Shown: positions 420 through 23,736 of the stretch, piece by piece | Layout: each line of letters opens with the position of its first letter | Position numbering within the stretch: position 1 is the first letter of the stretch | Origin: Acidobacteriota bacterium | GTDB taxonomy: Bacteria > Acidobacteriota > Terriglobia > Terriglobales > Acidobacteriaceae | Length of the DNA stretch: 64,000 nucleotides | Assembly: GCA_031296105.1 (NCBI GenBank) | Contig: JARLGJ010000057.1 | Coordinates: 62,001-126,000, forward strand | Reading direction: 5' to 3' | Translations under genes and position numbers: made by a program | Notes under the pieces: model-generated | What the model saw: only the letters and a program-made list of their open reading frames with translations | Told to the model about the DNA's origin: nothing | Database searches by the model: none

Positions 420-498
420 TCAACTTCAGAGTCCTATCGTGGTTGCAAAGACTCTTTGCTGTGATTCACAGGCATGACCCTGTTTGGCTCTTCCCTTA
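420..498. repeat. Duplicated 3' flank, copy 1
   Basis: This noncoding stretch just past the stop codon of the 496-3126 gene closely matches 27923-28001, which lies just past the stop of the paralogous gene at 27999. Both contain CCTATCGTGGTTGCAAAG and GGCATGACCCTGTTTGGCT. Both carry a small GCAAAG/CTTTGC hairpin. Similarity running beyond the coding region points to duplication of DNA rather than selection on protein. Confidence 0.85.
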
Positions 499-3830: not shown

Positions 3831-3859
3831 TACAACCTGGCACCAGGAATGCATTGATG

Positions 3860-3892
3860 AAGGGCGCGGCCGAGGCCGTGCCCTTTGCCTTT
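3860..3892 (+). terminator. Terminator-like hairpin after the small exported protein
   Basis: An 11-bp stem (3860-3870 with 3875-3885, one G-U pair, CGAG loop) is followed by a weak T-rich stretch, TGCCTTT. It sits between the convergent ends of the small exported protein and the cytochrome b-c gene. Confidence 0.5.
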
Positions 3893-3919
3893 GGTGTGAC
3901 AGGGGAACTGGAGGCTGAA

Positions 3920-5314
3920 TCAACGAGGGGCCGTGGAAGAACTGTGTTTTGGCCACAGATGTATGGAGCATTGGCGCGAGTCAAGCGACTGGATATATGA
4001 AGCCAGGTCGGCAAGTTCCGAGGGGGAGAGTCGATACGCAGGCATGAGAGCCGAGCGCGTGACAAGGCGCGGATTACGCACATACGCGGCGATCTCCTGG
4101 GGCGTGCGTCCGCGTGCCGCCAGGTTTGACAGATCGGGTCCGACAGGACGCCCCCCCAGTCCTTTTACGGTATGGCAATAGCCACATTGGTTCGCGGCAT
4201 AGAGTTGGCGGCCTCGAAGCTCTGCTACAGCCGCTGGCCGGCTCGCGATAGTGGAAACATTGTAAGGGAGGGTATGCTGCCAGGCCGACAACGTCAGATA
4301 GACGACGGCGGCAATCGCCGTGCTGGCAACCGCAGTAGCCAGCGGACGCCCGGCGGAGCGGCGACGGCGAGCATTGTCAAGAAAAGGCACTGCAAAAAGC
4401 AACAACAAACCGATGCCCGGGACGAGTAGACTCCCCACCCATTCCCACCGGCCAGGAAAGAACGTGAGTAGCTGAAAGAGCCAGAGGAAGAACCACTCCG
4501 GCCGGGGCTCGTAGCTGCCGTCGAGTTGTTGCAAAGGCGTGGAATGAGGCGGACCGCCAAGAATAGCGATCATCAGCCAAAGGCCTAAAACAGGCACAAA
4601 TACGCAAAGCAGACGGCGCACATGCTCCGGGAAGAAGCGGTAACCAGGAGTAGCGGGCGGAGCACTTTCCGCATCACAATCACATTCGTCCAAGCCGTGA
4701 CAACGAACAAGATAGACATGAACGGCAGCAAACAGCATCAACAAGGCAGGAAGAAAAAGAATGTGAAAGACATAAAAGCGCGTAAGAGAGAGTCCACTAA
4801 CGCTGTAGCCTCCAAGAAAGCCACAGGCGATCTGCCGTCCGGCGATGGGGACCTGTGAGATCAACGCAGACGTGACAACGGCGGCGGAATAAGAGCGAGC
4901 GCTCCAGGGCAGCAGTGAGCCGGTAAACAAAAGTCCTGCCGCAACCATCAGAAGAAGAACACCAGTGATCCAAGTGAATTGGCGCGGAGCCTTATAGCTG
5001 CCGCGTATGAAATTAGTGGCGAGGTGCGTCATCATCGTCAGGAGAAAGGCTCCGGCGCCCCAATAGTGGAAGGCGCGGAGCAGGCGGCCAGCGGGAACAT
5101 CCGAGACAATGAACGAAAGCGAGGCAGCAGCTTTATCAGGAGAGGGACTGTAGTAGAGCGCAAGAGAGCAGCCCGACAGTGCCAACAATAGAAACAGAAG
5201 AACGAGGAGGCTGCCCAGTACACTTCCCCAGGGAGCCCGCGCGGCGAGACGTTGCACAAGAAACGGCCGCAAATGCTGCTGCCAGCCAATTCCATCCAGA
5301 AGTGTGCGCATCAT
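3920..5314 (-). CDS. Cytochrome b fused to cytochrome c (bc complex core subunit)
   Basis: A 464-residue membrane protein that should form the quinol-oxidising core of a bc-type complex. The cytochrome b N-terminal part carries both heme-ligand pairs: H83-x13-H97 and H184-x14-H199, the latter spacing being b6f-like. The C-terminal b part has PEWF (272-275) in place of the usual PEWY. After the last membrane helices comes a cytochrome c domain with CGYCH (377-381) and a Met ligand at about 424 (SALMPAY). A Cys-rich patch (CDCDAES) lies around 211-217. The start overlaps the upstream stop as ATGA (5311-5314), and GGAGG lies four bases upstream. It is the last gene of the cluster and the natural partner of the Rieske domain encoded just upstream. 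What the c domain reduces is unknown. Confidence 0.9.
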   Translation of the reverse strand: MMRTLLDGIGWQQHLRPFLVQRLAARAPWGSVLGSLLVLLFLLLALSGCSLALYYSPSPDKAAASLSFIVSDVPAGRLLRAFHYWGAGAFLLTMMTHLATNFIRGSYKAPRQFTWITGVLLLMVAAGLLFTGSLLPWSARSYSAAVVTSALISQVPIAGRQIACGFLGGYSVSGLSLTRFYVFHILFLPALLMLFAAVHVYLVRCHGLDECDCDAESAPPATPGYRFFPEHVRRLLCVFVPVLGLWLMIAILGGPPHSTPLQQLDGSYEPRPEWFFLWLFQLLTFFPGRWEWVGSLLVPGIGLLLLFAVPFLDNARRRRSAGRPLATAVASTAIAAVVYLTLSAWQHTLPYNVSTIASRPAAVAELRGRQLYAANQCGYCHTVKGLGGRPVGPDLSNLAARGRTPQEIAAYVRNPRLVTRSALMPAYRLSPSELADLASYIQSLDSRQCSIHLWPKHSSSTAPR

Positions 5315-6519
5315 CCTACCTCCACGAGGAGTTGGCCGTTGTCGATCTTCCAGTCAAGTTGTGGCAGCGGCGCGGGCGGCGGACCGGAGAGGACCTCTCC
5401 GGCCGGCGAGAAGGCTCCAGCGTGGCATGTACAACGGAACTGCTGAAGCAGTTCATTCCATAAGACGCGGCAGCCAGCATGGGAACAGCGGCTTGAAAAG
5501 CACGTAAGGCGCGAGCCGGAGCGAAAGACGTAAACTGGTTCGCTGACGCGCTGGGTGTAGAAACCGTTTTCTGCCTCGTAATCGAGCTGAAGCGTAAGCA
5601 TGCGCTCTTCGGCAATCGCATCGAGCGTGGCAAGCCGGATCCAGCGGCGCGAGGGCCTCTGCCGCGGCACAAGAATCGAACCCCCGAGAATCGCGCCGAT
5701 ACCCAGTGTTGCGCAAAGAACACCGGCTCCGGCGGCGGCCCCGCGAATGAATCGGCGGCGGTCCGTCGAAAGCGGCGCGGCAGAGGGCGCATCGGCGCGG
5801 GCGCGACCGCCCAGAGCCAGCAGATGCAGGCCGTGGATCGCACGGGTAGCTTCAATTCCCTTCGGGCAGGATGCGGCGCAGTTGAGCTGGGTGCGACAGC
5901 CGTAGGAGCTATCGAGCATTCGATCCATCCGCGCCTGGTGCAGCGCATCCCGCGGATCGTTCTGCAGCTCAAACGCGCGCAATAGAACGGCCGGCCCCGC
6001 GAATCCAAGCCCTGGCTGGCACTGTGTGCAACTGGAAACACAACAGCCACAGCCGATGCAGTCGGACGAAAAGTCGCCGGGATAGAGCCGTTCGCCGTAG
6101 GGCCCCGGGGAATCCGCACCGCCGGAAAGGTCGTGGGGTTGGAAGAACACTAGATTCTCCGAGAACTTCTCGAAGAAAGATGACATATCAACCGCAAGAT
6201 CCTGAACGAGAGGAAAGTTGTTAAGCGGCGCCAGCGTAATCAGCGACGGTTTGCGCAGATGCGCAATCGTAGTTTTGCAGGCCAGGGCCTCCCGTCCATT
6301 GACCAGCAGGGCGCAAGAGCCGCAATATTCGGCGCGGCAGGCATGACGAAAAGCGAGACAGGGATCGAATTCCTGCTGAATGCGAAGCAGGAGATCGAGG
6401 ATCGTCGTGGTTGAAGGTGAGGGAACCGCGAGACGAAAACTGTCGTAGTGCGACGACTGACGGTCAGTCCCGCGAAACACGCGAACCGTGACGAGTGGTG
6501 GGTTGGAGGATCTACTCAC
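5311..6519 (-). CDS. SdhB/FrdB iron-sulfur protein fused to a Rieske protein
   Basis: A 402-residue fusion. Residues 1-240 are an SQR/QFR iron-sulfur subunit with a complete ligand set: [2Fe-2S] C61, C66, C69, C81; [4Fe-4S] C154, C157, C160, C218; [3Fe-4S] C164, C208, C214. Their spacing matches E. coli SdhB (C149/152/155/159/206/212/216). Then come a linker, a twin-arginine-like motif (DRRRFIRG, 253-260), a hydrophobic helix (about 262-285), and a Rieske domain with CSHAGC (345-350) and CTCHAGAF (from 363). The start is a GTG that overlaps the stop of the upstream anchor gene as GTGA (6516-6519), with GGAGAAG upstream. The reading frame stays open further upstream, but that sequence has no homology and overlaps the anchor gene. 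I infer a cytosolic SdhB part and a periplasmic Rieske part, tying an SQR-like complex to the bc module. Confidence 0.93.
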   Translation of the reverse strand: MSRSSNPPLVTVRVFRGTDRQSSHYDSFRLAVPSPSTTTILDLLLRIQQEFDPCLAFRHACRAEYCGSCALLVNGREALACKTTIAHLRKPSLITLAPLNNFPLVQDLAVDMSSFFEKFSENLVFFQPHDLSGGADSPGPYGERLYPGDFSSDCIGCGCCVSSCTQCQPGLGFAGPAVLLRAFELQNDPRDALHQARMDRMLDSSYGCRTQLNCAASCPKGIEATRAIHGLHLLALGGRARADAPSAAPLSTDRRRFIRGAAAGAGVLCATLGIGAILGGSILVPRQRPSRRWIRLATLDAIAEERMLTLQLDYEAENGFYTQRVSEPVYVFRSGSRLTCFSSRCSHAGCRVLWNELLQQFRCTCHAGAFSPAGEVLSGPPPAPLPQLDWKIDNGQLLVEVG

Positions 6520-6905
6520 GAAGCTTCTCCGCCGATGTGCGGCACCATGCCGGCCAACGAGGGATACGGGAAACAGCGATAAATGGAAAGCCATGCAGCA
6601 AGAATGACGGCAACGGCGAGGACCAGCAAAATCCAGGTCACCCATCGATGGGAAGCCAGATCGACGATCCGGAAATCCAGCAGGATGACGCGCACGCCGA
6701 GAGCGGCATGAAAAGTCACAACAAGCAGCAACAGAAACTGCAACAGCGGCTGCCAGGTGAATAGGAGGTGCGCGACGATAAGAATAACAGCGAGCAGGGC
6801 GGATATACGCTGCGCCACCCACGCCCACATACCCGCGCGGCCTGGGCCGGGGAATTGTGAGGCAGAAGCAGAGACGGTGGTCGGGCTAGAGCTGTTTTCT
6901 TCCAT
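6516..6905 (-). CDS. SdhC/D-like heme-b membrane anchor
   Basis: A 129-residue membrane protein with three predicted helices (about 29-50, 55-77, 88-108). It resembles single-subunit cytochrome b anchors of succinate:quinone oxidoreductases (AQRISALLAVILIVAHLL, TFHAALGVRVILLDF). H46 and H66 are candidate heme ligands. The ATG at 6905 was chosen because AAGGAG lies nine bases upstream. It starts inside the flavoprotein gene (20-bp overlap), and its stop overlaps the next start. Its role would be to anchor the flavoprotein/FeS pair and pass electrons to or from quinone. A second anchor subunit is not encoded nearby. Confidence 0.85.
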   Translation of the reverse strand: MEENSSSPTTVSASASQFPGPGRAGMWAWVAQRISALLAVILIVAHLLFTWQPLLQFLLLLVVTFHAALGVRVILLDFRIVDLASHRWVTWILLVLAVAVILAAWLSIYRCFPYPSLAGMVPHIGGEAS

Positions 6906-8787
6906 GAGACCGGGCTCCTTGAGGATGGCTTGCATCCCGCGGCGTGATGTCACCATTGAAATCGTTACTCGGAGCAGGATCCGAAACATGGTCGCGATGC
7001 CGCGCGCTATCGGCTTCCAGCGGGGCCGTTGTGCTTTCGGTGATGCCCTCGTGAGCGCGCTTCTTCCCTTTCTTGCGGTGTTCCCTGAACTCGGCCACGG
7101 ATAAGTAGGGGAACTCAACGGGGCGGCTTTCCATTTCGAAGCGGCCATTTTCGGTGTGACGCAAGAAGCTGTTAAACATTCCATACTCGTCGCGCTGTTC
7201 TTCAAAATCAAGGCGGCCATGAGCGCCGCGGCTCTCCTGACGGCGCGCGGCGGAGGCAATAACCAGCCGCGAGATGGCAATCATATTCCGAAGGTCGAGG
7301 GCGGCGGCAAAAGCGGAGTTAGAGGCCAGGTGACCACCGACCGAGACATGAGCGCTTTCGCCCTCTATGGCATCAACGGCGGTGATTGCCTGATCGAGCT
7401 TGGCGCGTTCCCGCACGGGGCCGACGTTCAGCCAGTTGATTTTCTGTAACTCGGAACACAGATGAAATGACGAAAGTCTGGAGGATGTGTGGAATGGCTG
7501 GCCGAGACGCAGCACCATATCTTCGATTTCCTTCGCCGGAGACTCCTCAACCGCGGAGCGCAGCGTAAGGCTGGCGGCAATGGCTTTTCCGGCAAGGCGG
7601 CCAAATACGCACGCAGCAGCTAGCCCGTTGCCGCCATGGCGGTTTGCACCATGGATGCCGCCGGCATCTTCGCCGACGACGAACAGACGCGCGAGCGAAC
7701 CGCGACCCTCCTCTGAAACCTGCGCCCCGCCCATGAAAAGCTGCGCCGCTGGTATCAGTGGGATCCGGCAGCGGGCGGGATCGTAGCCAAACTGCCGGAA
7801 GCGCTGCGCCATTAAGGGATACTCGCGCGAAATAAACTCCTCTCCCAGGTGGGATGCGTCCATTTCAATGCCACCTGAGGCGCAAGCGCGGCCACTGACG
7901 ATTTCAATATAGGAGCGGCGGCATAGAAGATCGCGGCTGGAACCCTCGCCGGAGCCGGGGGACTTGTGAAGCAGCGGCTCGCCGAGACCGTTGTAGAGAT
8001 GAGCGCCACTGGTGCGCAGTCCCTTCTCAAAGACCCCGCCGGTCGCGCTGCTTCCTGGCACCAGCAGGCAGGCGGGGTGGAACTGTATCATCTCCATGTC
8101 CCGCAGCCAGGCACCAGCCCGGAAGAGCATCGCCAAGCCGTCGGCGGTCTTGTCCGCACCAGATGCGTGGAACTGGTATTGCGCGGGGCCGCCACCGGTG
8201 GCTACCACGGTGGCGCCTGAGGTGACCGCCCGCCACTCGCCACGGCGCTGATCGAAAAGAAGAGCCCCGGTGACGCCCGAACCATCCGAGTTAAGCAGAA
8301 GATCGACGGCGCGGCACTCCTCCCACACGGGAATGCGGCGCTTCAGAATTTGCTCGGCAAAACATGTGATCACATGCAGCCCGGTCGTGCTCCCGTGGAA
8401 GACACGATGGTCGTTGGAGCCATCTTCCATCTCGCGCATCATACGCCGGCCCTGACCATCGCGGTCGAAATAGCAACCGAAGCGATTTTCCATCTCAAGG
8501 ACGGTGGCGGGAGCACACTCGACAAGACGCCTGACGAGACGTTGATCGTTGATGCATTGGCCGGTCTTTATGGTGTCCCGGAAGTGGCGCTCACAGGCAT
8601 CCGCGCCTCCGAAAGCGACGTTGAGACCGCCGCTCACCATCCGGCTGCTGCCGCCTTTGCCGCGCAGGGCGCGGGTGACGATCAGAATCCGCAGCGATGG
8701 GTCCGCGTCCAGGGCGGAGAGTGCGCACATTGCGGCTCCCGCTCCCATTCCCAGGATGAGAAGATCGACTTGGCTGCGATGGATCAT
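6886..8787 (-). CDS. SdhA/FrdA/NadB-family flavoprotein with altered active site
   Basis: A 633-residue flavoprotein of the succinate dehydrogenase/fumarate reductase/L-aspartate oxidase family. The FAD-binding GMGAGAA motif is at 13-19, and the GGVFEKGLRTSGAH, QFHPA and HGANRHGGNGLA motifs are present. Two family hallmarks are missing. The region where SdhA carries its FAD-linking His reads GGSSRMVSGG (45-54) with no His, so FAD should be non-covalent as in NadB. The substrate-loop His of (H)YTMGG is Gln (AQLFMGG, Q349). The C-terminal tail is long and charged. It starts as ATGA with the ECF S gene. The anchor and SdhB fusion downstream make a membrane-bound, quinone-linked enzyme likely. 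The substrate is unknown and is probably not plain succinate or fumarate. Confidence 0.88.
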   Translation of the reverse strand: MIHRSQVDLLILGMGAGAAMCALSALDADPSLRILIVTRALRGKGGSSRMVSGGLNVAFGGADACERHFRDTIKTGQCINDQRLVRRLVECAPATVLEMENRFGCYFDRDGQGRRMMREMEDGSNDHRVFHGSTTGLHVITCFAEQILKRRIPVWEECRAVDLLLNSDGSGVTGALLFDQRRGEWRAVTSGATVVATGGGPAQYQFHASGADKTADGLAMLFRAGAWLRDMEMIQFHPACLLVPGSSATGGVFEKGLRTSGAHLYNGLGEPLLHKSPGSGEGSSRDLLCRRSYIEIVSGRACASGGIEMDASHLGEEFISREYPLMAQRFRQFGYDPARCRIPLIPAAQLFMGGAQVSEEGRGSLARLFVVGEDAGGIHGANRHGGNGLAAACVFGRLAGKAIAASLTLRSAVEESPAKEIEDMVLRLGQPFHTSSRLSSFHLCSELQKINWLNVGPVRERAKLDQAITAVDAIEGESAHVSVGGHLASNSAFAAALDLRNMIAISRLVIASAARRQESRGAHGRLDFEEQRDEYGMFNSFLRHTENGRFEMESRPVEFPYLSVAEFREHRKKGKKRAHEGITESTTAPLEADSARHRDHVSDPAPSNDFNGDITPRDASHPQGARSHGRKQL

Positions 8788-9395
8788 GGTTGGACGGATG
8801 TCCGATCCTCTGGGGAGTCAGCGGCCACCTCCGGCGAGGGAACGTCCGGCATAATTGTTCCAGACGCTTGCATGCGGCGAGCGACTGGAGTTGCGAACGC
8901 TCCACCCAATGCGCCAAAAATCATGGCCCCTCCGGCGCGCAACAGAGAGTGCGTAACCGCCAGAGAAAAATCGAGACCAAGCAACCGATCCTGCACGATG
9001 CTGACCAGAACCCAGGACACGCCCATGAAAGCTCCGGTGATCGCGCTGAGAGCTACCGAGCGGGTCAGCCTGGGCAGCAGACGGAAGACAATATCGGCGA
9101 TGAGTCCAGCGATGACAAAGCTGAGCAGTTGCATGGGGCCCGCGTGGCCCATGCCGAACAACAACGACATAAGCCCGGCAAGAAAGCCCGTGAGAGTGGC
9201 CACCCAGCAGGCCCGGATACAGGCGCGCGCCAGCAGCAAAAAGAACACGAGCGGAAGAAGACGGTGGCCAGGCAAATGCATGGGAATGCGCAGGAACTGT
9301 TGCGCCAGGATTATGCCAACGGCGGAAAATCCGGTGACTAGCGCTTCACGCAGCGTAAAGCCGAGCCAGTATTTGGTATTCGTTTGACCGGTCAT
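8784..9395 (-). CDS. ECF transporter S (substrate-binding) subunit
   Basis: A 203-residue protein with about five to six hydrophobic helices. After a short polar N-terminus (MTGQTNTKYWLGFTLREALV) comes a helix-rich body including RIPMHLPGHRLLPLVFFLLL and an Ala/Gly-rich last helix. Size, topology and position directly after the ECF ATPase and T genes identify it as the S component, which sets substrate specificity. I cannot match it to a known vitamin family. The ATG at 9395 overlaps the T-gene stop as ATGA, with AAAGG about eight bases upstream; upstream in-frame sequence is a shadow of the T gene. Its stop overlaps the flavoprotein start, which implies that the imported compound and the flavoprotein are linked. 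Confidence 0.75.
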   Translation of the reverse strand: MTGQTNTKYWLGFTLREALVTGFSAVGIILAQQFLRIPMHLPGHRLLPLVFFLLLARACIRACWVATLTGFLAGLMSLLFGMGHAGPMQLLSFVIAGLIADIVFRLLPRLTRSVALSAITGAFMGVSWVLVSIVQDRLLGLDFSLAVTHSLLRAGGAMIFGALGGAFATPVARRMQASGTIMPDVPSPEVAADSPEDRTSVQP

Positions 9396-10090
9396 GGGTG
9401 AACCTTTCTGCAGATGAGTTGGGACCGAAGCGTCGGCTGCGCTGGGGTATCTTCGCCAATTCCCCGCTGGCGGGCAGCCACCGACACCTCGTCGGCAAGA
9501 TGAAGAGCGCGCATGAAAATCGGGATTGCCAGACAGCGGCACCACTCTGCCCAACAGAGGGGATTGATGAGCTGACGCGGAGCTACACGGGCGCCACGTA
9601 GCTGCTGAAGCCAATATATTTCGCGAGCTTCGCGGGTGATGAGCGGCACAAAATGCAGGCTCATCGTAATAACAAAGGCGAGCCGCGACGGTAGAAAGCG
9701 TCCGAAGACAGCCAGAATATCGCTGACGCGCGTCGTGCGCTGTAGCCAAAGGCCGGGCAAACATAGCAGCCCCAGCCGAATCGAGACAAGCAGGGCGGCG
9801 GGAAGGGCGGCCATCCCCTGGCGCAAAAGAAGGACTGCCACTACCAGCGGGGCTTGATAAAGCACAACCCTGGCGTCTTGCAACATTTGACGCCATCCCA
9901 GGCGGGCCAGCGCATACAGCAGGAACCAGATGAGTACGAGAATCAACGCGGCAGTAAGCCGTGAGTTGATAAGATCGGCCAGCGCGAGCAGCCCAACCAT
10001 GCACAACTTAACCGCAGCCGGAAGTCGTTGGATGGGAGTCGAGCGCGCCATGTATTGACCGGGAAAACCGCGCCGGCTGTCTCTAGGCAT
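9392..10090 (-). CDS. ecfT: ECF transporter T (energy-coupling membrane) subunit
   Basis: A 232-residue membrane protein of the EcfT/CbiQ family. Helices in the first half are followed by the two cytoplasmic coupling-helix motifs, seen here as LQQLRGARVAPRQ and VAARQRGIGE (the X-A/R-R-G type that contacts the ATPases). The ATG at 10090 has GGGAGG eight bases upstream and overlaps the ATPase stop by eight bases. The T subunit transmits ATP hydrolysis to the S subunit encoded immediately downstream. Confidence 0.87.
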   Translation of the reverse strand: MPRDSRRGFPGQYMARSTPIQRLPAAVKLCMVGLLALADLINSRLTAALILVLIWFLLYALARLGWRQMLQDARVVLYQAPLVVAVLLLRQGMAALPAALLVSIRLGLLCLPGLWLQRTTRVSDILAVFGRFLPSRLAFVITMSLHFVPLITREAREIYWLQQLRGARVAPRQLINPLCWAEWCRCLAIPIFMRALHLADEVSVAARQRGIGEDTPAQPTLRSQLICRKVHP

Positions 10091-11414
10091 CAAGCAGCCT
10101 CCCATGGGAGAGAATGAACCGCCGCCGGCCCCAGGCTGCGGGCAGGGGGCCGTGAGAAACAAGCAGGATGGCCATGTTGTCAGCGCAAGCATAGTACTCA
10201 AGAACGCGGAGAACATGACGGGCTAGTTCGTCGTCGAGACCGGTGAGTGGCTCGTCAAGCAAAAGAACCTCGGGGCCGGCCGCAAGTAGAGTAGCCAGTG
10301 CGACCAGATGACGCTCACCGTGGCTGAGGCAAAGCGGCGAACTTTCCGCCAACGGACCCAGGCCGCAGAACGCGAGAGCCTCCTGTGTCCGGCGGGACGC
10401 AGCAGGATTGCGGCTGCGGCGTCCCGAGAAACCCACTTCGCGCGCGACAGTCTCTTCGAACAGCAGCATGTCGGAGGCCTGAGGCAGCAGAAGAACTTTG
10501 CGCGCTAGCGGCGCCGGTGAGGTGACACTGGTGCCGCGGAAGCGAACCTCGCCGAGTTGGGGCCGTTGGCCGGCAGCAAGCAAGCGCAGCAACGTTGATT
10601 TTCCAGCAGCGTTTTCTCCGAGAATGTGGACCTGGTCGCCGGGATATAGCGCAAAATCCAACTGCGCCAGCACCGGCGCCGAGCAAGCATCCTGGCAACA
10701 GATGCCAGATGTGGTTAGCAGCGGCTCGCCAAACGCCATCGCCGGCGGAGGCGCAGGAGCAGGCGGCAGTGGCGGCAGCGAAAGACGAGTACGAGACGCC
10801 GGGGGAAGAGAGATCTGTATATCCCAGAGAGGATCGCCTGGAGCGGCCTGGTGCTGGGAGACAATCACGGCACACCCTTGGGATTTGAGATGAGCGATGC
10901 AATGGCGAAGCTCTGTCTGCCCGGCCAGGTCAAGCTGGGAGAAGGGCTCATCAAGCAAAAGGAGCGAAGGCTTCATGGCCAGCAGCGCGGCCAGCAGGAC
11001 GCGATGCTTCTGCCCCATAGAGAGCATCTCCAGGTTGCGGTGACGCAAGGGGAGCAGCGAGTGCAGCTTTAGCTGCTCCTCAATACGAGACGACATTTCT
11101 TCGCCGGAAAGATGCAGGGTGTGCAGGCCGAGGGCAATCTCCTCCTCGACGGTGGTGCACAGGAGCTGAGTCTCGGGATTCTGCATGGCGAGACGGGGAT
11201 TCTCGGGAAGCTTGCGCGCCTGCCAACTGCTCTTGCTATTCTCCGCCGAGCACCTGGCGAGGGCGCGGAGAAAGGTTGACTTACCGCTGCCAGAGGGACC
11301 GCAGATAAGAGCAGCCTGACCGGGGTATAGATCCAAGGAGAGAGACAAGTCAATGCGGCCACCGTTGGCGTAGCAGTGCTGCAGGCGCTCCACGGAAAGC
11401 AGAGGCTCGGTCAC
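10083..11414 (-). CDS. ECF transporter ATPase, two ABC domains fused
   Basis: A 443-residue cytoplasmic protein with two ABC ATPase domains in tandem, equivalent to EcfA and EcfA' in one chain. Domain 1 has Walker A GPSGSGKST, signature LSMGQ and Walker B LLLLDEP. Domain 2 (after a Pro/Ala-rich linker at about 205-225) has Walker A GENAAGKST, signature LSHGE and Walker B VLLLDEP followed by LVSHG. Both sites look competent, though the signatures deviate from LSGGQ. The start is GTG, overlapping the previous stop as GTGA (11411-11414). It powers the T and S subunits encoded next. Confidence 0.9.
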   Translation of the reverse strand: MTEPLLSVERLQHCYANGGRIDLSLSLDLYPGQAALICGPSGSGKSTFLRALARCSAENSKSSWQARKLPENPRLAMQNPETQLLCTTVEEEIALGLHTLHLSGEEMSSRIEEQLKLHSLLPLRHRNLEMLSMGQKHRVLLAALLAMKPSLLLLDEPFSQLDLAGQTELRHCIAHLKSQGCAVIVSQHQAAPGDPLWDIQISLPPASRTRLSLPPLPPAPAPPPAMAFGEPLLTTSGICCQDACSAPVLAQLDFALYPGDQVHILGENAAGKSTLLRLLAAGQRPQLGEVRFRGTSVTSPAPLARKVLLLPQASDMLLFEETVAREVGFSGRRSRNPAASRRTQEALAFCGLGPLAESSPLCLSHGERHLVALATLLAAGPEVLLLDEPLTGLDDELARHVLRVLEYYACADNMAILLVSHGPLPAAWGRRRFILSHGRLLDA

Positions 11415-12133: not shown

Positions 12134-12134
12134 G

Positions 12135-12866: not shown

Positions 12867-12899
12867 ATTACGCGTCTCTTATCCATGACCAATTACATT

Positions 12900-15443: not shown

Positions 15444-15464
15444 AGTGATCCTGTAGATCCACTC

Positions 15465-16487
15465 CTACTTCTTGCCCACGATTTCGTGATGCAACCACTG
15501 CAGAATTTTTCCATCATCTGCCGCGCGCTCTCGATACTCGGACACAGTGCCATAGGCGGCAAAGGCCGCGCCCCGTGGCAGAGCTGCGCGCAGATGCTCT
15601 CTCACGGACTCCGGCACGCTATCGTCAAACGCCGCAAGTTGAAGGCGAACAGAGCGCTGCTTCAATAGTGGAAGCCACTTCACGGGATCAAGCGGCGCAA
15701 CCTTTTCCAGAAAAGATTGCGTGGTGTAGCTATCTCGCTCTGACCCAGGAACAACCGTCGATTTTGCAAGCCAGACCGGCCAATCGCCCCAAGGGTCCAG
15801 GGCATCGACCGCTTGAATGCGGGAATCCGCCGCCGCAGCGAGTATTGCAATCGTGCCGCCCGCACCCTGCCCGAAGATTCCAACGCGAGTCATGTCCAGA
15901 TCGCCTCGGCTGGCAAGATAATTAAGCAGCGCCTGCACATCATGAGTTGACTTGCCCAATGACTCTTGTAGCTCGCTCACAAACCACTGTTTCATGGGCC
16001 GGTTATGGTACCTTTGCCCGGTAAGGGCGGTGGCAAAGCCAACAGCTGCGAAGCCGTCTCGAATGGCGGCACGGCAGAAGCTATCGTCACGAAAGCGATC
16101 CGCGCCCGCTGGAAAACTGTAAAGGAAAACTACAACCGGTGGCCGCTTTACTCCAGTTGGGCGAACTATATAGAGATCGATAGGATCTCCTTGACGCCAC
16201 TGCACCCGCAGTAACTCCCGCGTGAGATCATCAGCTTTATCGATCTCTCCGACCATGACCTGCGTCGAGGGCCATTGCTCAGGTGCCAAATGTATGTCAT
16301 CCCACCTCTCGTTTGGCTGTGACGCCGGCGAGGCAGGAACAGCAGCAGGCAGCGGCGGGCCAGGCTGTTCCATGGCAGAAAGAGGAAGGCACAGCAACAA
16401 TGCCTGCGCCGCCACCAGAACTACAGATTGAAGCTTGGCAACTAGCACTCTAGTGTTTTCCGCGTACTTTAACCCGATAAGATACAT
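15465..16487 (-). CDS. Exported alpha/beta-hydrolase-fold protein lacking the nucleophile Ser
   Basis: A 340-residue protein with an N-terminal signal sequence (hydrophobic core VVLVAAQALLLCLPLSA). The fold is a dienelactone-hydrolase/acyl-peptidase type: VVVFLYSFPAGADRF for the oxyanion loop region, then VGIFGQGAGGTIAILAAA for the nucleophile elbow. The elbow reads G-Q-G-A-G where G-x-S-x-G is expected; codon GGT at 15864-15866 places Gly at 208. A C-terminal His (WLHHE) remains. This suggests a binding or scaffolding pseudoenzyme rather than an esterase. It starts four bases after the stop of the giant secreted protein and ends 21 bp before the TonB receptor. A GTG at codon 14 is an alternative start. 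Confidence 0.75.
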   Translation of the reverse strand: MYLIGLKYAENTRVLVAKLQSVVLVAAQALLLCLPLSAMEQPGPPLPAAVPASPASQPNERWDDIHLAPEQWPSTQVMVGEIDKADDLTRELLRVQWRQGDPIDLYIVRPTGVKRPPVVVFLYSFPAGADRFRDDSFCRAAIRDGFAAVGFATALTGQRYHNRPMKQWFVSELQESLGKSTHDVQALLNYLASRGDLDMTRVGIFGQGAGGTIAILAAAADSRIQAVDALDPWGDWPVWLAKSTVVPGSERDSYTTQSFLEKVAPLDPVKWLPLLKQRSVRLQLAAFDDSVPESVREHLRAALPRGAAFAAYGTVSEYRERAADDGKILQWLHHEIVGKK

Positions 16488-16491
16488 ACTA

Positions 16492-19400
16492 TTACTGAAT
16501 CGTGATCGTCACTTTGATCACATGAGTTGTATTGCTCGTGTCAGTCGCCGTAACTGTCAATGTCTGGGTTCCCGCTTCGCTGTTGACGCTCGACGAAGAT
16601 CCGCCACTTCCTCCGCAGGAGGCAAGCCCCGCTACAACTATTGCAACTACGCCAAGCAGCAGAATTGCACCCTTCTTTCTATGGCGAGTGGCTCCTCCCA
16701 CGGCGAACAAGATTCCCAGCACACCCACCGTTAATGGCCAGTATCTCTTCGGCAGCCGTTCGCCGGCTCCGTGAGAGCTTGCACTGCTGCTGGATTTGAG
16801 CACCGTTATACTCAGTGTGTTCAGGTTTGGTGTATTCGTCGGCGAAATGCTGATGGTCGGGCTGCTCAGCGCACACGTTATGTAAGACGGCAGAGTTCCA
16901 CAACTTAGGGTGATGACGCCTGAATACCCGTTAAGTGAACTCGTGGTCAGCGTGACCGAGCGGGTCTGTCCTACCGCCATCGTGATCGAGCTGGAGGACG
17001 CGCTAACCGAAAAGTCGGGAGTGCCGGTTATGTTCAGCGTCCCGCTGACGAAGCTGAACGTGTAGTTCCCGTTTGCAGCAGACAGGGTTCCGCTGGTGCC
17101 CGTGGAAGATACGACGAAGCTGAGCGGATAGCTGGTTCCCCCCATTGAGGTGGACGTGGCCGTCGTCGTCAACTGCGGCTGGCCGGTAAGCGCGGAACTC
17201 TGTGTATCGCTATTTACAAATCCAGTGACGCTGTACAGACTGGCTACCTCATTGACCAATACCGAAGTATCGAACGGGTAAGCGTAAGAAGTGGTATTCG
17301 CCGTGACCGTCAGCACGGCGGCAGAAACGACCAAACTCTGACTAACCGAGGCAGCGGCTACATAGGTGCCGTCGCCAGCCTGGACTGCGGTCACTGTTAC
17401 CGTGCCTGCTCCAGTTATCGTAAGCACCTGCCCGGATACAGAGGCAGGTCCAGTCACCGTGTAGCTCACCTGCAACCCGGAGGAGGAAGTTCCATTCAGT
17501 GTAATTGGCCCGCTGCCGTAGACCGCATTGTTCTGGAGTGTGAACGCGATCGTCTGCGGCAGATTTCCAGTCACCTTCAGGGTTCCACTCACAAACGGGG
17601 AGAAGGTAATGTTTGAGGGTGCGAGCAGTGTGCCCTGGGAAACATTGATTGTACTGACGTATGGATCAGCCGTTGCCGACAGCGAGAGTGCAGGCGTGCC
17701 GGTGAGATAAGTGGTCATCGATGCAAAAGCCGCAGGGTCCGCGCCATTGGCGCCAGCCAGCAGATTAGCCAGATCGACATTTGGCAGCCATTCGCTAGTC
17801 CCGTCCCACTGGAAGCCGGCAATGCTTGCCGTGAGGGTAGGCGTTGCGGCCCCATACTCCTGCGTCTGGTCGTCAGCGGTCACGCTCACCGTAACAGTTG
17901 CCGCGCCTTTTACCGCACGCACCACGCCGTTGCTGTAGTCCGCAATATAGAGATTCCCCTGGCCATCAAAGGCGAGGGATTGTGGCGAGCTCAGGGTCGC
18001 TGCTGTTGCTTCACCGCCATCTCCGGAATAGCCGCTTTGTCCCTCTTTTCCCACAACCGATTCGATGATTCCAGGAACGCTTCCCCCGGTTACCATGCGC
18101 ACAGCATTCTCTTGTCCATCGGCAATGAAGAGGTTGCCCGAGGCGTCAAGCTTGATATCTCTGGGCGTATTCAGATAAGACGAACTCGCGGATGCGCCAT
18201 CGCCACATGCATTATTAGAGCACTTGGCATTCGCTGTGCCTGCGACTGTATATAGCTGGCCCACAACCGGCGCCGCTCCAGCCAATACAGCTTGCAGTAC
18301 AGGAGGAACCGGGCTGCCTCCGCCGTAGAGTACGGTGACAACAGATTTCTGATAATCGGAGATAAACAGGTTGCCGACTGAGTCAACGAAGATACCGGAC
18401 GGTGCTCCCATAGTGGAGCCTGTGGTGACGGTATAGATGTAACCTTGCACCGGAGAGGAAATACCGAATGCAGAAGACAGAGACTTTCCGCCGTAGATGA
18501 CCCGAACCACTGAGTTACCTGTATCAGCGATAAAGACGTTTCCGGAAGCGTCCACAAAGACACCCTCCGGCGCATTCAGCGTGGCGCTGCCTGACGCCGC
18601 TCCATCGCCCAAGTAACCTGCGGTGCCTGTTCCCGCTACAACGGAGATTGCGCCGCTGGTGCTCACCTCGTAAACGGCATTGAGGCTCCTGTCCGCAATG
18701 TAGAGGTTGCCTGAGCCATCCAATGCCAGCGAGCGCGGAGATTTCAGCTTGGCATCGATGGCCTGTCCTTGACTGCCACAGGCGCTGACCTGCTGCACCG
18801 TGCAGGCCGAGCTGCCGGCGACCACATAGATATAGCCAATTTGCGGAGTAACTCCGGAGAGTGCGGCGCTCAGAACTCCTGGCACGGTATATCCGGCGTA
18901 TACGACCTGAACAACCGGTGGGTCCGAGACATAGACATTCCCTGCGCTGTCAACTGCGACTGCGCTTGGGGAAGCCAACGCAGTGGTAGCCGCGGCCACT
19001 CCATTACTTCCTGTTTGCGACCCGTACTTGCCTGCAAGTGTCTCGATAAGTGTGCCCGCTCCAAGAGGCATGATGACGTAGGACGCGCTTGCCTGACTGC
19101 TTTGACTGTAGTTGTTGGCAATCGCAATTGCGTTAATGGTCATGCTGGAGCTTACCGTGATGGACCCGGTGTATTGCGTGGAACTAGCCGCGCTCGGGAC
19201 AGTGCCATCTGTCGTGTAGTAGATTGCGGCACCACTCGTGGCGTCCGTGATGGTCACGGTTTGTGCCGCGATATAGCTCCCGCCCGCGGGACTGAACGTG
19301 GGCGTAGCCGCCGGAGTTACGATGACATATGCCGCGCTCGCCAGCGCGCTTTGGTTGTACCCGCTGGCGGTAGCGACCGCATTGATGGTCGTGGTCGCGT

Positions 19401-22400
19401 TGACCGTGATCGGTCCCGTATAAAGCGCTGCGGTTGCCGGATCCGGTGTGCTGCCGTCCAGCGTGTAGAAGATCGATGAGCCACTTGTTGCATCTGAGAT
19501 AGTGACGTTCTGCGATGTGGTATAGGTTCCGCCAACCGGACTGAAGGTTGGAGTCGCCGCCGCTTGCTGCTGGTTTATGACGTAAACAGCGCTCGCGGAG
19601 GCCGTCGTATAGCCGCTCAACACTGCGATCACATTGATGGTCGTGGTCGCGTTAACCGTGATCGGTCCCGTATAGAGTGTGGCGGCCGCCGGAGTTGGTG
19701 TGCTGCCGTCAAGCGTGTAGTACAGGGAAGCGCCTCCCGTCGCGTCCGTCAGGGTGACGGTCTGCGATGTCTGATAAACTCCCGCTGCGGGAGTAAAGGC
19801 CGGCTGCGCGGCCTGTAGCGTATAGGTTGCGCTGGCCACCGCACTCTGGCTATAGTTGCTGGCCGTCGCTAGCGCCTGTATGGTCATACTGCGACTCACC
19901 GCGATGGGCCCAGAATAGAGCGTAGAACTCGTACTCGGCGTGCTGCCATCTGTGGTGTAGTAAATGGATGCCCCGCTCACTGTATCTGCCAGCGTCACGC
20001 TCTGGGCCGCGCCATATGTTCCACCCGACGGACTGAAAGTCGGACTCGGCCCGCTGCTGGCAATTGTGTAGATTGCGCTCGCTACGCTGCTCCGGCTGTA
20101 GTTGTTTGCGATGGCCACCGCATTCACGGTCGTCGTCGCGCTTATCGGGAACGCGGCCGTATATAGAGAGGAGATTCCGGGATTTGGAGTGCTGCCGTCT
20201 AATGTGTAGTAGATCGAAGCCCCAGTGGTTGCGTCCGTAATGGTTACACTCTGCCCCGTGCTGTAGGTGCCTGCTGCTGGACTGAACTGGGGAGTCGCGG
20301 CCGGCAGTGTGATGGTGAACGTGCCCATTTCCAAACTGCTCTCGACGAATCCCGGCGCAATGGCGACCGCCTGAATCGTGGTGGTCGTGCCGATCGATAT
20401 CGGCTGACTGTACACGCTGGAAGCTGAAGTCGGAACCGTGCCATCCAGTGTGTAGTAAATCACCGCGCCCGGAGTAGTGGACGACAGACTTACCTGCTGA
20501 GCCGAAGTGTAGGCTCCCCTCGCCGGCGAAAAGGCCGGAGTGGCCGTAACCAGCGAGTACGCGGCGCTGGCCACGCTGCTGCCTGTATATCCGGAAGCTA
20601 TGGCAATAGCGCTTAAGGTCTCCGAAGTAGCGATAGAAATTGGCCCGCTGAAGAGAGTAGACGCACTGGTCGGCCAGCTCCCATCCAATGTGTAGTAGAT
20701 TTTCGCGCCCGTGGTTGTATCTGAGATCGTTACGCTCTGCACCGAGTTGTATGTGCCCGCCGCCAGAGACAAGACCGGAGTATCCGCCTGGGTACCACTG
20801 ATGGTATAGCTTGCGGTAACGGTGTTGCTCTTGTTGATGCCGTTATTGGTTCCGGTTCCACTGCCACCGGTCGCATACGCGGTCAGCGCTGTGGTGGAAT
20901 CAACCGTGATTGGTCCGGAGTAGAGCGTTGGCGTCAGGTCTCCGGTACGCGTGTAGTAGATGTACACGTTGGCGGTCGTATCCGTAATCGACACCTGCTG
21001 CGTACCGGTGTAGGTTCCGGCTGCGGGCGAAAAGACCGGGTCGGCGGCCTGAATAGTGTACTGGGCCTTGGCAACCACGCTGGTGGAATACCCGTCTGCG
21101 GTGGCGATCGCGTTGAGCGTGGTGGCGGCGCTGATTGTAATTGCACTGTCATACACCGTTGAAGAGGTGGTTGGCGTGCTGCCGTCCGTGGTGTAGTAAA
21201 TGGTGGCGCCGCTGGCCGTATCGGAGATCGTGATCGAGAGCGTATCGGTGAACGTTGTACCCGATGCCGGCGAGAAGACTGGCGTCGGCGCCAGCGGATT
21301 GCCGATTTCATACGTGGCGCTGGCTACCGCGCTGACCACATAACCCGGTGCAATCGCAACCGCGTTAATCGTCTCCGTGGTGCTGACGGTAATAGAGCCT
21401 GTGTAGAGAGTGGATGAGGTCGTCGGTGTGCTGCCGTCCGTGGTGTAGTGAATCGAAGCGTTCGTCGTCGTATCCGACAAAGTCACGGTCTGGGCGACAA
21501 GGTAGCGTGCCGAGGCCAGAGAAAATGTGGGCGACGCTGCCGCAACCTGTCCGGAAACACGAATGAGTCCGCCAATGTCATTACCGGATTCAGAGGTCGT
21601 TCCATCGCTGCCGCCCAACGCGAGGTGGGGCAGAGTGTAGCTGCTGCACTGCACCGCAGCCAGTTGCGGACCGTTGTTTGCCGTCACCGAAACTGTAGGA
21701 TTGTAAGGCGCCACGTAGTGCTCGCGGTACACGCTGAGGCCGGGTTCGTCGTTGATTCCGTCCTGCGTCGCGGCGCATTGCGGATCGAAGGGAACGATGT
21801 CGGGAAGTGTGGTATCCGCAATGCTCTCCACCATGTTCATCAGGGTGGTCACCTTGGAGTAGCCGCTGGATGTTGAGTCTGTCACCATGCGGTAGATGGT
21901 CCAGAGCGGGTAAGTACCGTTGCGCAGATTGGGGTAGGAGGTATATTTTCCATCCGCGCTGGGAGCCTTGCAAGTTACCGTGTTAGCCGTTCCCGCCATG
22001 TTGCACGTTGGCAGTTGTCCGCTATAGGAGTTGTACAGCGGATCGACATCATGCACGGTGCCATCGCTGTCAACCCAGCGGATTGAGAGGTAACCGTATT
22101 CCGGCAAGTTCGACGCATTGGCATTCGGCGAGGTAGCCACCGTGTACGACGTGTTATTCGGGTCCACCGAGCCAAATAGTTCATAGCTGAACAGAACGTA
22201 ACCGATCTCATCTTGAACAGGCAGGACGGCCTGGCCAAGTTCCTGATTTAGGATCGTGCCGGTGGAACTGGTATTCGTCAAGGCCGCGATGGTGTCGGCC
22301 ATGCCGACTACGCGGCTGCGGTTGGCATAGCCGGCAGTCTCGGCGGTCGAGGTGGCTTTGTCCAACACGCTGACGCACCACTTATTCAGGGGATTGTTGC

Positions 22401-23736
22401 GCGAAACACCATACATGCGAGCTGCAACGTAATTTTCCTGGGTCAGCCCCAAAGGATTGGCCGTACCGTTGTCTTGTACGCCGCCGGGGTAAATGGTGAC
22501 CATGCCATTGGGAAAGTTTGCCGTGTCAAACATGCTATATTCGGCTACGTTCCACGCGCCTGAGAGGGGATTGGCCAGGACCGGATTCACCGGATTGGTC
22601 GTGGCACTCGGGTTCGCTGGCCCTCCCTGGAACACACCTGTATCGCACTCGTTGCCACTGAACAGCCACGCTGCAGGATACCGCTGCGGCGAGGGCAGAG
22701 TATCGCCGGCGGGAAGACAACTGGTGCACCCCGAGGAGGGTGACGAGGAATCGGTCACCGTGTTGTCGTAAAGCGTAAGGTTCGTGATCCCGTAGCTGCT
22801 TCCGCCATAGGCAATGTATCCCAGGCTGTTGGGGTCGCCACGATTGACGACGACAACCAGTGGCGATGCGCCGTAGGGTATCGCAACCCACGAACCAACG
22901 CTCTGGCTCGTAATTGGATCCAATCCGGTCAAGTTGAAAAGCACCGCCTGCTCCAGAGCCAGGGAGTAGTCGCTCTGAATGGGATAGCCTGTGTAGGGAT
23001 CGACCGGCAGCGCGGTGCCGGGGTTTCCTGGGTTAGACCAACCTAACCCATACAGCAACTTCGTCCCGCTTGCAGGAAACGCCGTCGAGGTAGCGGCAAG
23101 TTCGCGCTGGGTTGCAAATAAGGCATCTTCGGGACGCATCATGCTCACCGCGGCGGTCATGCTCGCGGTCTTGTTGATCACGTTCATGAACTTCTGGGGA
23201 AGGGCCGTGTCGGCGCTTCCGTCATCCCAGACGTTGACGAGATTCTGCGGATCCGGAGGTGTGTTGGTGTCGCCCCATAGCTTAATCTGCGCTCTCGGCG
23301 AGGCCAGAAAGCCTCGCACTGCGACGGTTGAATCCACGCTGAGGTAAGCCCACACTTGACCGCTGTCATTCCACACGATCCAGATTGGTCCTGCTTGATT
23401 TTCAATGCTGCTATCGGAGGTCTGCCGCTGGTCGTAGAGGTAGGCGCAGGAAACGGAAGTGGCCACATAGGTGGTGTCCGAGCTATTTACCAAGGATGGA
23501 ACCGGGCTCAGCAGGCAGGATGAAGACTTATCGACAGTATAATGGTAAGCTTTGCCATTATATTGCTTCGCAAGTTGATAGGCGGCTTCGGCATATAACC
23601 CTGCCTGGGATGATTCCCCGGCGGCGAGCACTTGAACCACTGCTTGCTGGGCGATGACCGAGGGCACAATGAATGGCGCAGTCATCATCAGCAGTGCAGC
23701 CAATAGCCTCTTTAGTTTCAAGCCAAACACACCCAT
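16492..23736 (-). CDS. Giant secreted protein: PBP-like head, ten CHB_HEX repeats, NHL, MBG, C-terminal TM hairpin
   Basis: A 2414-residue protein. After the signal peptide (1-29) a domain of about 700 residues weakly resembles PstS-type phosphate-binding proteins (VLAAGESSQAGLYAEAAYQL, GASPLVVVVNRGDP). Residues about 730-1555 hold ten CHB_HEX_C_1 modules, each with YYTTDGSTP or YYTLDGSTP. About 1560-1945 are NHL/SMP-type propeller repeats (GNLYIADRSLNAVYEV, GNVFIADTGNSVVRVI). About 1950-2290 include MBG-like modules (ADDQTQEYGAATPTLTASI) and an Ig-like domain. Near 2329-2375 two hydrophobic helices flank RHRKKG, followed by CGGSGGSSSS and a terminal beta segment (TQTLTVTATDTSNTTHVIKV). AAAGGG six bases upstream supports the ATG. 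It is followed by the hydrolase-fold gene with a 4-bp gap. It is probably a membrane-anchored surface protein; ligand unknown. Confidence 0.85.
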   Translation of the reverse strand: MGVFGLKLKRLLAALLMMTAPFIVPSVIAQQAVVQVLAAGESSQAGLYAEAAYQLAKQYNGKAYHYTVDKSSSCLLSPVPSLVNSSDTTYVATSVSCAYLYDQRQTSDSSIENQAGPIWIVWNDSGQVWAYLSVDSTVAVRGFLASPRAQIKLWGDTNTPPDPQNLVNVWDDGSADTALPQKFMNVINKTASMTAAVSMMRPEDALFATQRELAATSTAFPASGTKLLYGLGWSNPGNPGTALPVDPYTGYPIQSDYSLALEQAVLFNLTGLDPITSQSVGSWVAIPYGASPLVVVVNRGDPNSLGYIAYGGSSYGITNLTLYDNTVTDSSSPSSGCTSCLPAGDTLPSPQRYPAAWLFSGNECDTGVFQGGPANPSATTNPVNPVLANPLSGAWNVAEYSMFDTANFPNGMVTIYPGGVQDNGTANPLGLTQENYVAARMYGVSRNNPLNKWCVSVLDKATSTAETAGYANRSRVVGMADTIAALTNTSSTGTILNQELGQAVLPVQDEIGYVLFSYELFGSVDPNNTSYTVATSPNANASNLPEYGYLSIRWVDSDGTVHDVDPLYNSYSGQLPTCNMAGTANTVTCKAPSADGKYTSYPNLRNGTYPLWTIYRMVTDSTSSGYSKVTTLMNMVESIADTTLPDIVPFDPQCAATQDGINDEPGLSVYREHYVAPYNPTVSVTANNGPQLAAVQCSSYTLPHLALGGSDGTTSESGNDIGGLIRVSGQVAAASPTFSLASARYLVAQTVTLSDTTTNASIHYTTDGSTPTTSSTLYTGSITVSTTETINAVAIAPGYVVSAVASATYEIGNPLAPTPVFSPASGTTFTDTLSITISDTASGATIYYTTDGSTPTTSSTVYDSAITISAATTLNAIATADGYSTSVVAKAQYTIQAADPVFSPAAGTYTGTQQVSITDTTANVYIYYTRTGDLTPTLYSGPITVDSTTALTAYATGGSGTGTNNGINKSNTVTASYTISGTQADTPVLSLAAGTYNSVQSVTISDTTTGAKIYYTLDGSWPTSASTLFSGPISIATSETLSAIAIASGYTGSSVASAAYSLVTATPAFSPARGAYTSAQQVSLSSTTPGAVIYYTLDGTVPTSASSVYSQPISIGTTTTIQAVAIAPGFVESSLEMGTFTITLPAATPQFSPAAGTYSTGQSVTITDATTGASIYYTLDGSTPNPGISSLYTAAFPISATTTVNAVAIANNYSRSSVASAIYTIASSGPSPTFSPSGGTYGAAQSVTLADTVSGASIYYTTDGSTPSTSSTLYSGPIAVSRSMTIQALATASNYSQSAVASATYTLQAAQPAFTPAAGVYQTSQTVTLTDATGGASLYYTLDGSTPTPAAATLYTGPITVNATTTINVIAVLSGYTTASASAVYVINQQQAAATPTFSPVGGTYTTSQNVTISDATSGSSIFYTLDGSTPDPATAALYTGPITVNATTTINAVATASGYNQSALASAAYVIVTPAATPTFSPAGGSYIAAQTVTITDATSGAAIYYTTDGTVPSAASSTQYTGSITVSSSMTINAIAIANNYSQSSQASASYVIMPLGAGTLIETLAGKYGSQTGSNGVAAATTALASPSAVAVDSAGNVYVSDPPVVQVVYAGYTVPGVLSAALSGVTPQIGYIYVVAGSSACTVQQVSACGSQGQAIDAKLKSPRSLALDGSGNLYIADRSLNAVYEVSTSGAISVVAGTGTAGYLGDGAASGSATLNAPEGVFVDASGNVFIADTGNSVVRVIYGGKSLSSAFGISSPVQGYIYTVTTGSTMGAPSGIFVDSVGNLFISDYQKSVVTVLYGGGSPVPPVLQAVLAGAAPVVGQLYTVAGTANAKCSNNACGDGASASSSYLNTPRDIKLDASGNLFIADGQENAVRMVTGGSVPGIIESVVGKEGQSGYSGDGGEATAATLSSPQSLAFDGQGNLYIADYSNGVVRAVKGAATVTVSVTADDQTQEYGAATPTLTASIAGFQWDGTSEWLPNVDLANLLAGANGADPAAFASMTTYLTGTPALSLSATADPYVSTINVSQGTLLAPSNITFSPFVSGTLKVTGNLPQTIAFTLQNNAVYGSGPITLNGTSSSGLQVSYTVTGPASVSGQVLTITGAGTVTVTAVQAGDGTYVAAASVSQSLVVSAAVLTVTANTTSYAYPFDTSVLVNEVASLYSVTGFVNSDTQSSALTGQPQLTTTATSTSMGGTSYPLSFVVSSTGTSGTLSAANGNYTFSFVSGTLNITGTPDFSVSASSSSITMAVGQTRSVTLTTSSLNGYSGVITLSCGTLPSYITCALSSPTISISPTNTPNLNTLSITVLKSSSSASSHGAGERLPKRYWPLTVGVLGILFAVGGATRHRKKGAILLLGVVAIVVAGLASCGGSGGSSSSVNSEAGTQTLTVTATDTSNTTHVIKVTITIQ

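Follow-up and report, generated by a model that had tools for sequence, protein, structure and literature searches.

A twelve-gene acidobacterial operon that probably combines a new way of acquiring molybdenum or tungsten with a separately acquired electron-transfer enzyme

A closely packed minus-strand locus

The DNA analyzed here, hereafter the window, is a stretch of 64,000 nucleotides from an acidobacterial genome. A preliminary description had placed twelve minus-strand genes at positions 3920-23736, and all twelve open reading frames are indeed present there (Table 1).

Table 1. The twelve genes in their order along the minus strand, with the evidence for each assignment
Gene product	Positions in the window	Strand	Basis
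Giant secreted protein, 2414 aa; first gene of the unit	16492..23736	-	ORF, Pfam
Alpha/beta-hydrolase-fold protein, 340 aa, apparent signal peptide	15465..16487	-	Pfam DLH E 5.6e-7
TonB-dependent receptor, 847 aa	12900..15443	-	Pfam plug and barrel
DDTD2, TiaS-kinase-domain-like protein, 243 aa	12135..12866	-	Alignment to homologues
DDTD1, TiaS-kinase-domain-like protein, 240 aa	11411..12133	-	Predicted fold and profile match to TiaS
EcfA1-EcfA2 fused ATPase	10083..11414	-	Two ABC_tran stretches; cbiO/ECF_ATPase models
EcfT, CbiQ family, 232 aa, ATG at 10090	9392..10090	-	Pfam CbiQ
EcfS, S component, uncatalogued family, PGH motif	8784..9395	-	Family alignment; AlphaFold model
SdhA/TfrA/NadB-type flavoprotein, 633 aa	6886..8787	-	FAD_binding_2 and Succ_DH_flav_C
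Small SdhC-like membrane anchor, 129 aa	6516..6905	-	Pfam Sdh_cyt E 1.9e-6
SdhB fused to Rieske domain, 402 aa	5311..6519	-	Fer2_3, Fer4_8, TAT_signal (weak), Rieske
Cytochrome b fused to mono-heme cytochrome c (CGYCH), 464 aa	3920..5314	-	Pfam, motif reading

The gaps between the first genes measure 4 bp (giant protein/hydrolase fold), 21 bp (hydrolase fold/TonB receptor), 33 bp (TonB receptor/DDTD2), and 1 bp (DDTD2/DDTD1). The seven start/stop overlaps that had been described below position 12133 are confirmed from the sequence: 4 bp at DDTD1/EcfA1-EcfA2 (11411-11414, GTG start), 8 bp at EcfA1-EcfA2/EcfT (10083-10090), 4 bp each at EcfT/EcfS and EcfS/SdhA (the latter at 8784-8787), 20 bp at SdhA/SdhC (6886-6905), and 4 bp each at SdhC/SdhB-Rieske (GTG start) and SdhB-Rieske/cytochrome b-c. 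Seven same-strand overlaps in a row are not a matter of chance and indicate one putative transcription unit, at least from DDTD2 downward. On the 5' side, a gene for a carboxypeptidase-regulatory/TonB-type protein ends 84 bp before the giant gene, and past the cytochrome gene lies about 0.8 kb with no convincing gene, followed further downstream by a gene (496-3126, minus strand) for a secreted protein with four near-identical repeats, each of about 85-90 residues. Promoter and terminator scans of positions 3000-17000 gave only scores at the level of shuffled sequence, and Rfam and tRNA scans of the window gave no matches.

The gene identities in the preliminary description hold for the TonB receptor, the ECF ATPase, T and S components, and the redox genes; a correction concerns the hydrolase-fold protein. 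Enzymes of the dienelactone-hydrolase type carry a GxSxG-type nucleophile motif, whereas a motif scan of this protein finds GQGAG, from residue 206, at the expected position. Since the nucleophilic serine is replaced, the protein is probably non-catalytic, and an active esterase step in the operon was dropped. The giant protein is built of ten chitobiase-C/Fn3-like repeats and NHL-type propeller repeats (Pfam) together with an N-terminal region that has no database match, its first 579 residues matching no PDB sequence. Both plug and beta-barrel domains are found in the TonB receptor (Pfam PF07715, 6e-19, and PF00593, 3e-29). In what follows, the uptake module comprises the giant protein, the pseudo-hydrolase, the TonB receptor, DDTD2, DDTD1, and EcfA-T-S, and the redox module the SdhA-like flavoprotein, the SdhC-like anchor, SdhB-Rieske, and cytochrome b-c.

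The DDTD proteins and the ECF importer

DDTD1 and DDTD2 are paralogues (about 40% identity) that matched no Pfam family. The AlphaFold model of DDTD1 (pLDDT 89) superimposes on TiaS, the tRNA(Ile2) 2-agmatinylcytidine synthetase (PDB 3amt), with a Z score of 20.2 and an rmsd of 2.2 over 146 residues, and a profile of 27 DDTD members run against the PDB returns TiaS at an E-value of about 7e-14, over residues 1-152 only. What the two have in common is the kinase (TCKD) fold in the first ~152 residues, the DDTD Mg-ATP motif, and a threonine; D8, D9, T10, and D11 are conserved across the DDTD family, as is the threonine aligned with Thr18 of TiaS, which we take to be the phosphorylated residue of that enzyme. 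The FLD, OB, and zinc-ribbon (tRNA-binding) domains of TiaS, however, are all missing from the 240-residue DDTD1, in which the match ends near residue 152, and the score of DDTD against the TiaS family model is 32.4 bits where the cut-off is 600. The earlier reading of two TiaS-like proteins therefore survives for the kinase-like domain but not for the other domains of TiaS, and agmatidine synthesis by the DDTD proteins was dropped because the tRNA domains are absent. The DDTD genes further differ from TiaS in sitting within bacterial uptake operons. Across 120 Halobacteriota genomes, full-length DDTD proteins score at E <1e-72, whereas TiaS and its relatives score at 1e-24 or worse and over the first domain only; judged by this clean gap, DDTD is a family of its own with one domain in common with TiaS.

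Of 396 Acidobacteriota genomes searched, 8 gave a DDTD homologue, the organism's own among them (one of the eight being a match of 45 residues only), as did 2 of 249 Pseudomonadota, 7 of 151 Chloroflexota, and about 17 of 120 Halobacteriota genomes (centre genomes counted). Further homologues come from Planctomycetota, Bacteroidota, and Spirochaetota contigs in GTDB and from haloarchaeal and Pimelobacter plasmid records. A query joining SdhB-Rieske to DDTD2 gave no DDTD at an E-value of 1e-26 in the other 398 genomes of the organism's class. The closest relatives of DDTD2 (70%) and DDTD1 (47%) are encoded by adjacent genes in Rhodoblastus acidophilus, which suggests horizontal transfer. The Pimelobacter simplex plasmid (L038, NZ_CP097987.1) is a circle of 3820 bp made up of the genes for DDTD, for a divergent EcfS, and for a secreted protein rich in glycine; on the Natribaculum luteum plasmid, the DDTD gene (L037:12001-12663) is absent from the PLSDB gene table and has a BtuF-FecCD-ATPase operon beside it.

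The importer that follows DDTD1 has its pair of ECF ATPases within one chain. Its EcfS has no Pfam or NCBIfam assignment above cut-off, with sub-threshold matches only, but its AlphaFold model (15-sequence alignment, pLDDT 87) matches solved S components with Z scores of 14-17 over about 160 residues, the nearest being 5edl, FolT, ThiT, and BioY. With the S component modeled in this way, together with the fused ATPase pair and the CbiQ-type T component, the predicted A-A-T-S set is complete, as had been claimed. The operon shares this full set and the S-component fold with known ECF-type importers and differs from them in that its S component reaches the cut-off of no Pfam or NCBIfam family and its substrate is probably related to molybdenum or tungsten (Mo/W).

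The company of DDTD genes in other genomes

Open reading frames were called in about 38-40 DDTD loci from several bacterial phyla, methanogens, and haloarchaea and clustered by all-against-all BLAST, and markers were tallied within 8 kb of DDTD. An EcfS of the same family adjoins DDTD in about 18 other loci, roughly half, in both bacteria and methanogens; most of the methanogen loci, and some of those from Spirochaetota, Chloroflexota, and Pseudomonadota, also have EcfA and EcfT. BtuF/FecC-type (BtuFCD-type) importers replace ECF in five loci (L016, L027, L037, L127, L130). TonB receptors lie near DDTD in L016, L031, L032, L035, and L131 and, weakly, in L019, with relatives of the window's own receptor adjoining DDTD in L032 (36%), L035, and L131. 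The order in the pseudomonadotal locus L131, TonB-EcfA-EcfT-EcfS-DDTD, is close to that of the window's uptake module, and in methanogen loci with ECF the outer position is held by a secreted surface-protein family (F2). This co-occurrence of DDTD with ECF or BtuFCD importers and TonB receptors in several phyla supports the earlier proposal of capture and import with the DDTD proteins acting on the cargo.

Among the methanogens, large surface proteins with a repeated 'GGLNALHIT' domain, for which Pfam matches only PEGA and carboxypeptidase-regulatory, flank the ECF-DDTD genes in L023, L024, L112, L122, and L123. Methanoculleus UBA303 (L112/L113) has three DDTD genes in about 23 kb, two of them with complete ECF sets and surface proteins.

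Mo/W genes recur near DDTD in at least five phyla. Homologues of the molybdenum storage protein lie beside it in seven loci (L027, L030, L114, L115, L116, L118, L120), that of L030 matching MoSto beta at E 1.8e-78. A rough estimate puts at about 0.4% the chance that a gene present once among 2000-3000 genes lies no more than five genes away from another given gene, so that 7 of about 38 loci is far above chance, even when the methanogens are counted once. The order in L114-L116 and L118 is storage protein, DDTD, TupA (1.7e-57), TupB (7.2e-46), and TupC, with an MFS_MOT1 molybdate transporter (7.7e-53) near. Two Planctomycetota loci have the arrangement ModE-EcfS-DDTD (ModE_repress 1.4e-17 and 2.6e-14). 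In a Chloroflexota locus, DDTD and WtpA (1.8e-81, above the curated cut-off) come after an HTH-PBP regulator with a PBP_like domain that is similar to the C-terminal portion of a protein of molybdopterin biosynthesis; a similar regulator occurs in L033. The Bacteroidales locus L019 combines a tungsten-type aldehyde oxidoreductase (AOR) with DDTD, EcfS, and a TonB receptor. EcfS and Mo/W markers come together only in a few loci (L019, L025, L026, L033, L122), and the strongest Mo/W clusters, those with Tup and MoSto, have DDTD without EcfS. No Mo/W gene adjoins the window operon, so that the metal link is transferred to it from homologues.

DDTD genes thus adjoin genes of the ModABC/TupABC/WtpABC type of importer in methanogens and Chloroflexota, whereas the window operon has no periplasmic oxyanion-binding protein or type I permease and has a TonB receptor and an ECF importer instead. 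The open literature that was covered yielded no ECF-type molybdate or tungstate system and no link between DDTD and molybdenum. The vitamins and aromatic or heterocyclic acids put forward as substrates in the preliminary description are replaced here by the Mo/W link that the DDTD neighborhoods provide.

The siderophore and corrinoid uptake systems of the TonB-BtuFCD type also combine an outer-membrane TonB receptor with an ATP-driven inner-membrane importer, and in Rhodoblastus the same two DDTD proteins go with a system of this type; the window, by contrast, has ECF in its place, and the DDTD proteins are without counterpart in the TonB-BtuFCD system. We regard it as quite improbable that the cargo of the uptake half is a vitamin or corrinoid with no relation to Mo/W and that the Mo/W neighbors reflect general anaerobe biology. 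TonB with BtuFCD is the usual corrinoid route, BtuF-like binding proteins occur in five loci (the best NCBIfam match of one being BtuF, far under cut-off), and several DDTD loci have no Mo/W marker, but specific Mo/W genes recur beside DDTD across the phyla, and the surroundings of the window operon showed no genes for corrinoid synthesis. Corrinoid salvage was dropped as the main reading on these two grounds.

An independent test of the Mo/W link compared acidobacterial genomes: PF00384 molybdopterin oxidoreductases have a median of 9 in DDTD-bearing acidobacteria and 4 in others (Mann-Whitney p 9e-5; per Mb, p 6e-4; own genome removed, p 3e-4), the 50 comparison acidobacteria having been taken from earlier search results rather than at random and the test ignoring phylogeny. 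In the organism's own genome there are six MoaA homologues above cut-off and 11 PF00384 loci, of which three contain an in-frame TGA. It also encodes one ModA-type protein, and that it already has such a protein is a point against Mo/W uptake by the operon. In this genome of 3.45 Mb (L140-L144, contigs C60, C57, C37, C40) the in-frame TGA codons possibly encode selenocysteine, and hydrogenase/formate-hydrogenlyase-like clusters are present.

The metal could also arrive within its cofactor. If import served to salvage an intact molybdopterin or tungstopterin, either the cofactor or a precursor of it, the DDTD proteins would phosphorylate or nucleotidylate the imported compound. Vitamins and pterin-like molecules are the normal ligands of ECF S components, an AOR gene stands beside DDTD-EcfS in L019, and DDTD loci encode secreted proteins with a sulfite-oxidase-molybdopterin fold or a similar one (L130, E 4e-14; L032, E 5e-6), further members of this secreted family occurring in L017, L018, L126, L127, and L129. 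Some of these proteins, however, have no significant Pfam match, the six MoaA homologues imply that the organism probably makes the cofactor itself, and the storage-protein, TupABC, and WtpA neighbors favor metal over pterin, and we consider pterin salvage unlikely. A secreted Oxidored_molyb-like domain is fused to a tetrapyrrole-methylase domain at L032:17056-18819, a locus that also holds DDTD, EcfS, two TonB receptors, and a methyltransferase.

The redox module and a proposed working of the operon

The closest NCBIfam models to the flavoprotein are TfrA, SdhA/FrdA, and NadB, all under cut-off. Compared with E. coli SdhA, whose active-site residues we take to be H242, E255, R286, H354, and R399, it keeps H242, R286, and R399 and shows the changes H354Q, T254E, and E255K. 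The position of the covalent-FAD histidine reads as serine in the alignment, and this histidine is likewise absent from L-aspartate oxidase. Given what is typical of the family, these differences predict that the flavoprotein does not oxidize succinate. SdhB-Rieske has the cysteine motifs of three clusters (CRAEYCGSCALLVNGREALAC, CIGCGCCVSSC, and CRTQLNCAASCP), its SdhB part scores 161 bits against the dhsB model (cut-off 88), and a twin-arginine-like membrane segment lies between its two domains. With the Rieske domain placed after such a segment, SdhB would be cytosolic and Rieske periplasmic, and the protein would be a covalent tether of complex II-like and bc-like parts. Cytochrome b, Rieske, and cytochrome c, the three components looked for in a cytochrome bc complex, are all present. 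The redox half therefore has the same subunits and cofactor motifs as succinate dehydrogenase/fumarate reductase and cytochrome bc but differs from them in its SdhA residues, in having SdhB and Rieske in one polypeptide, and in the fusion of cytochromes b and c. Elsewhere in the window (32584-34023, minus strand), close to the operon, lies another reductase of the fumarate-reductase superfamily, a secreted flavocytochrome-c-type FAD protein (TIGR01813, 388 bits, above cut-off).

The organism has an ordinary SdhB elsewhere in its genome, separate from the fusion. A single match across SdhB and Rieske was found only in the organism's own genome among the 396 Acidobacteriota genomes; a genome of the same class (G376) has SdhB and Rieske as two matches in one open frame (C347:369-1628), the only further fusion noticed in the Acidobacteriota and class samples. 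There, two genes read as class I fumarase subunits are followed by SdhA (42%), with its active-site histidine retained, SdhC (54% over 57 residues to the window's anchor), and SdhB-Rieske, and the 4.4-kb contig has no DDTD or ECF genes. No SdhB-Rieske fusion was found described in the open literature that was covered.

These distributions bear on the central claim of the preliminary description, that all twelve genes form one pathway to capture, import, activate, and oxidize or reduce one organic compound. The overlapping junctions do run on over the EcfS/SdhA border (8784-8787), the changed active-site residues of the flavoprotein hint at a substrate out of the ordinary, and the redox chain could oxidize the organic part of a chelate once the metal is released. 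However, tblastn gave no match to SdhA, SdhB-Rieske, SdhC, or cytochrome b-c at any of the 38 other DDTD loci (the flanks reaching about 9 kb at most and being limited by contig ends), the related SdhA-SdhC-SdhB-Rieske set adjoins a class I fumarase, and the uptake and redox halves were found together nowhere else in the 399-genome class sample. Neighborhoods seeded with DDTD and SdhB-Rieske thus show the uptake half recurring but not the redox half beside DDTD. As the halves do not co-occur in homologous loci, as far as sampled, the observation named beforehand as refuting a single system was made within this sampling; one system with the redox chain is unsupported, and a single pathway seems to us improbable.

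We propose, with moderate confidence, that the operon consists of two modules, one for the uptake of a Mo/W compound and a separately joined redox unit of the complex II/III type. What is directly supported is the composition and packing of the locus, the folds predicted for EcfS and DDTD1, and the repeated occurrence of Mo/W genes near members of the DDTD family. In the proposed mechanism, the secreted proteins would bind the Mo/W ligand at the surface or in the periplasm and the TonB receptor would move it across the outer membrane, the use of such a receptor pointing to a bulky or scarce ligand, for example a metal chelate or pterin-bound metal, rather than the free oxyanion. The ECF complex would then carry the ligand across the inner membrane. 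Both DDTD proteins, in which the Mg-ATP motif of the TiaS kinase domain and its threonine position are kept, would spend ATP, either to process the ligand or to hand the metal to storage or cofactor synthesis. The redox module would form a tethered complex II/III-type unit that passes electrons between a cytosolic substrate, probably other than succinate, quinone, and cytochrome c. A functional tie between the two modules is possible, and a part for the redox module in handling the organic portion of the ligand is speculation. The fullest version, in which TonB and an ECF importer with an S component of a new family import an organic Mo/W complex, the TiaS-kinase-like proteins spend ATP to release or activate the metal, and, in this organism, the covalently tethered complex II/III converts the organic part by redox chemistry, we regard as a long shot.

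The uptake half belongs to a widespread, Mo/W-associated family that is apparently undescribed, as far as the open literature covered shows. If our proposal is correct, a protein family still without a name, present in both bacteria and archaea, is linked to how cells obtain Mo/W, and the availability of these metals is limiting for nitrogen fixation, formate metabolism, and methanogenesis. Besides the oxyanion importers already known, Mod, Tup, and Wtp, there would be a route through TonB and ECF, microbes would import Mo/W in complexed form, and the kinase domain of a tRNA-modifying enzyme would have been reused in metal metabolism. The SdhB-Rieske fusion, seen here in two genomes, would physically link respiratory complexes II and III.
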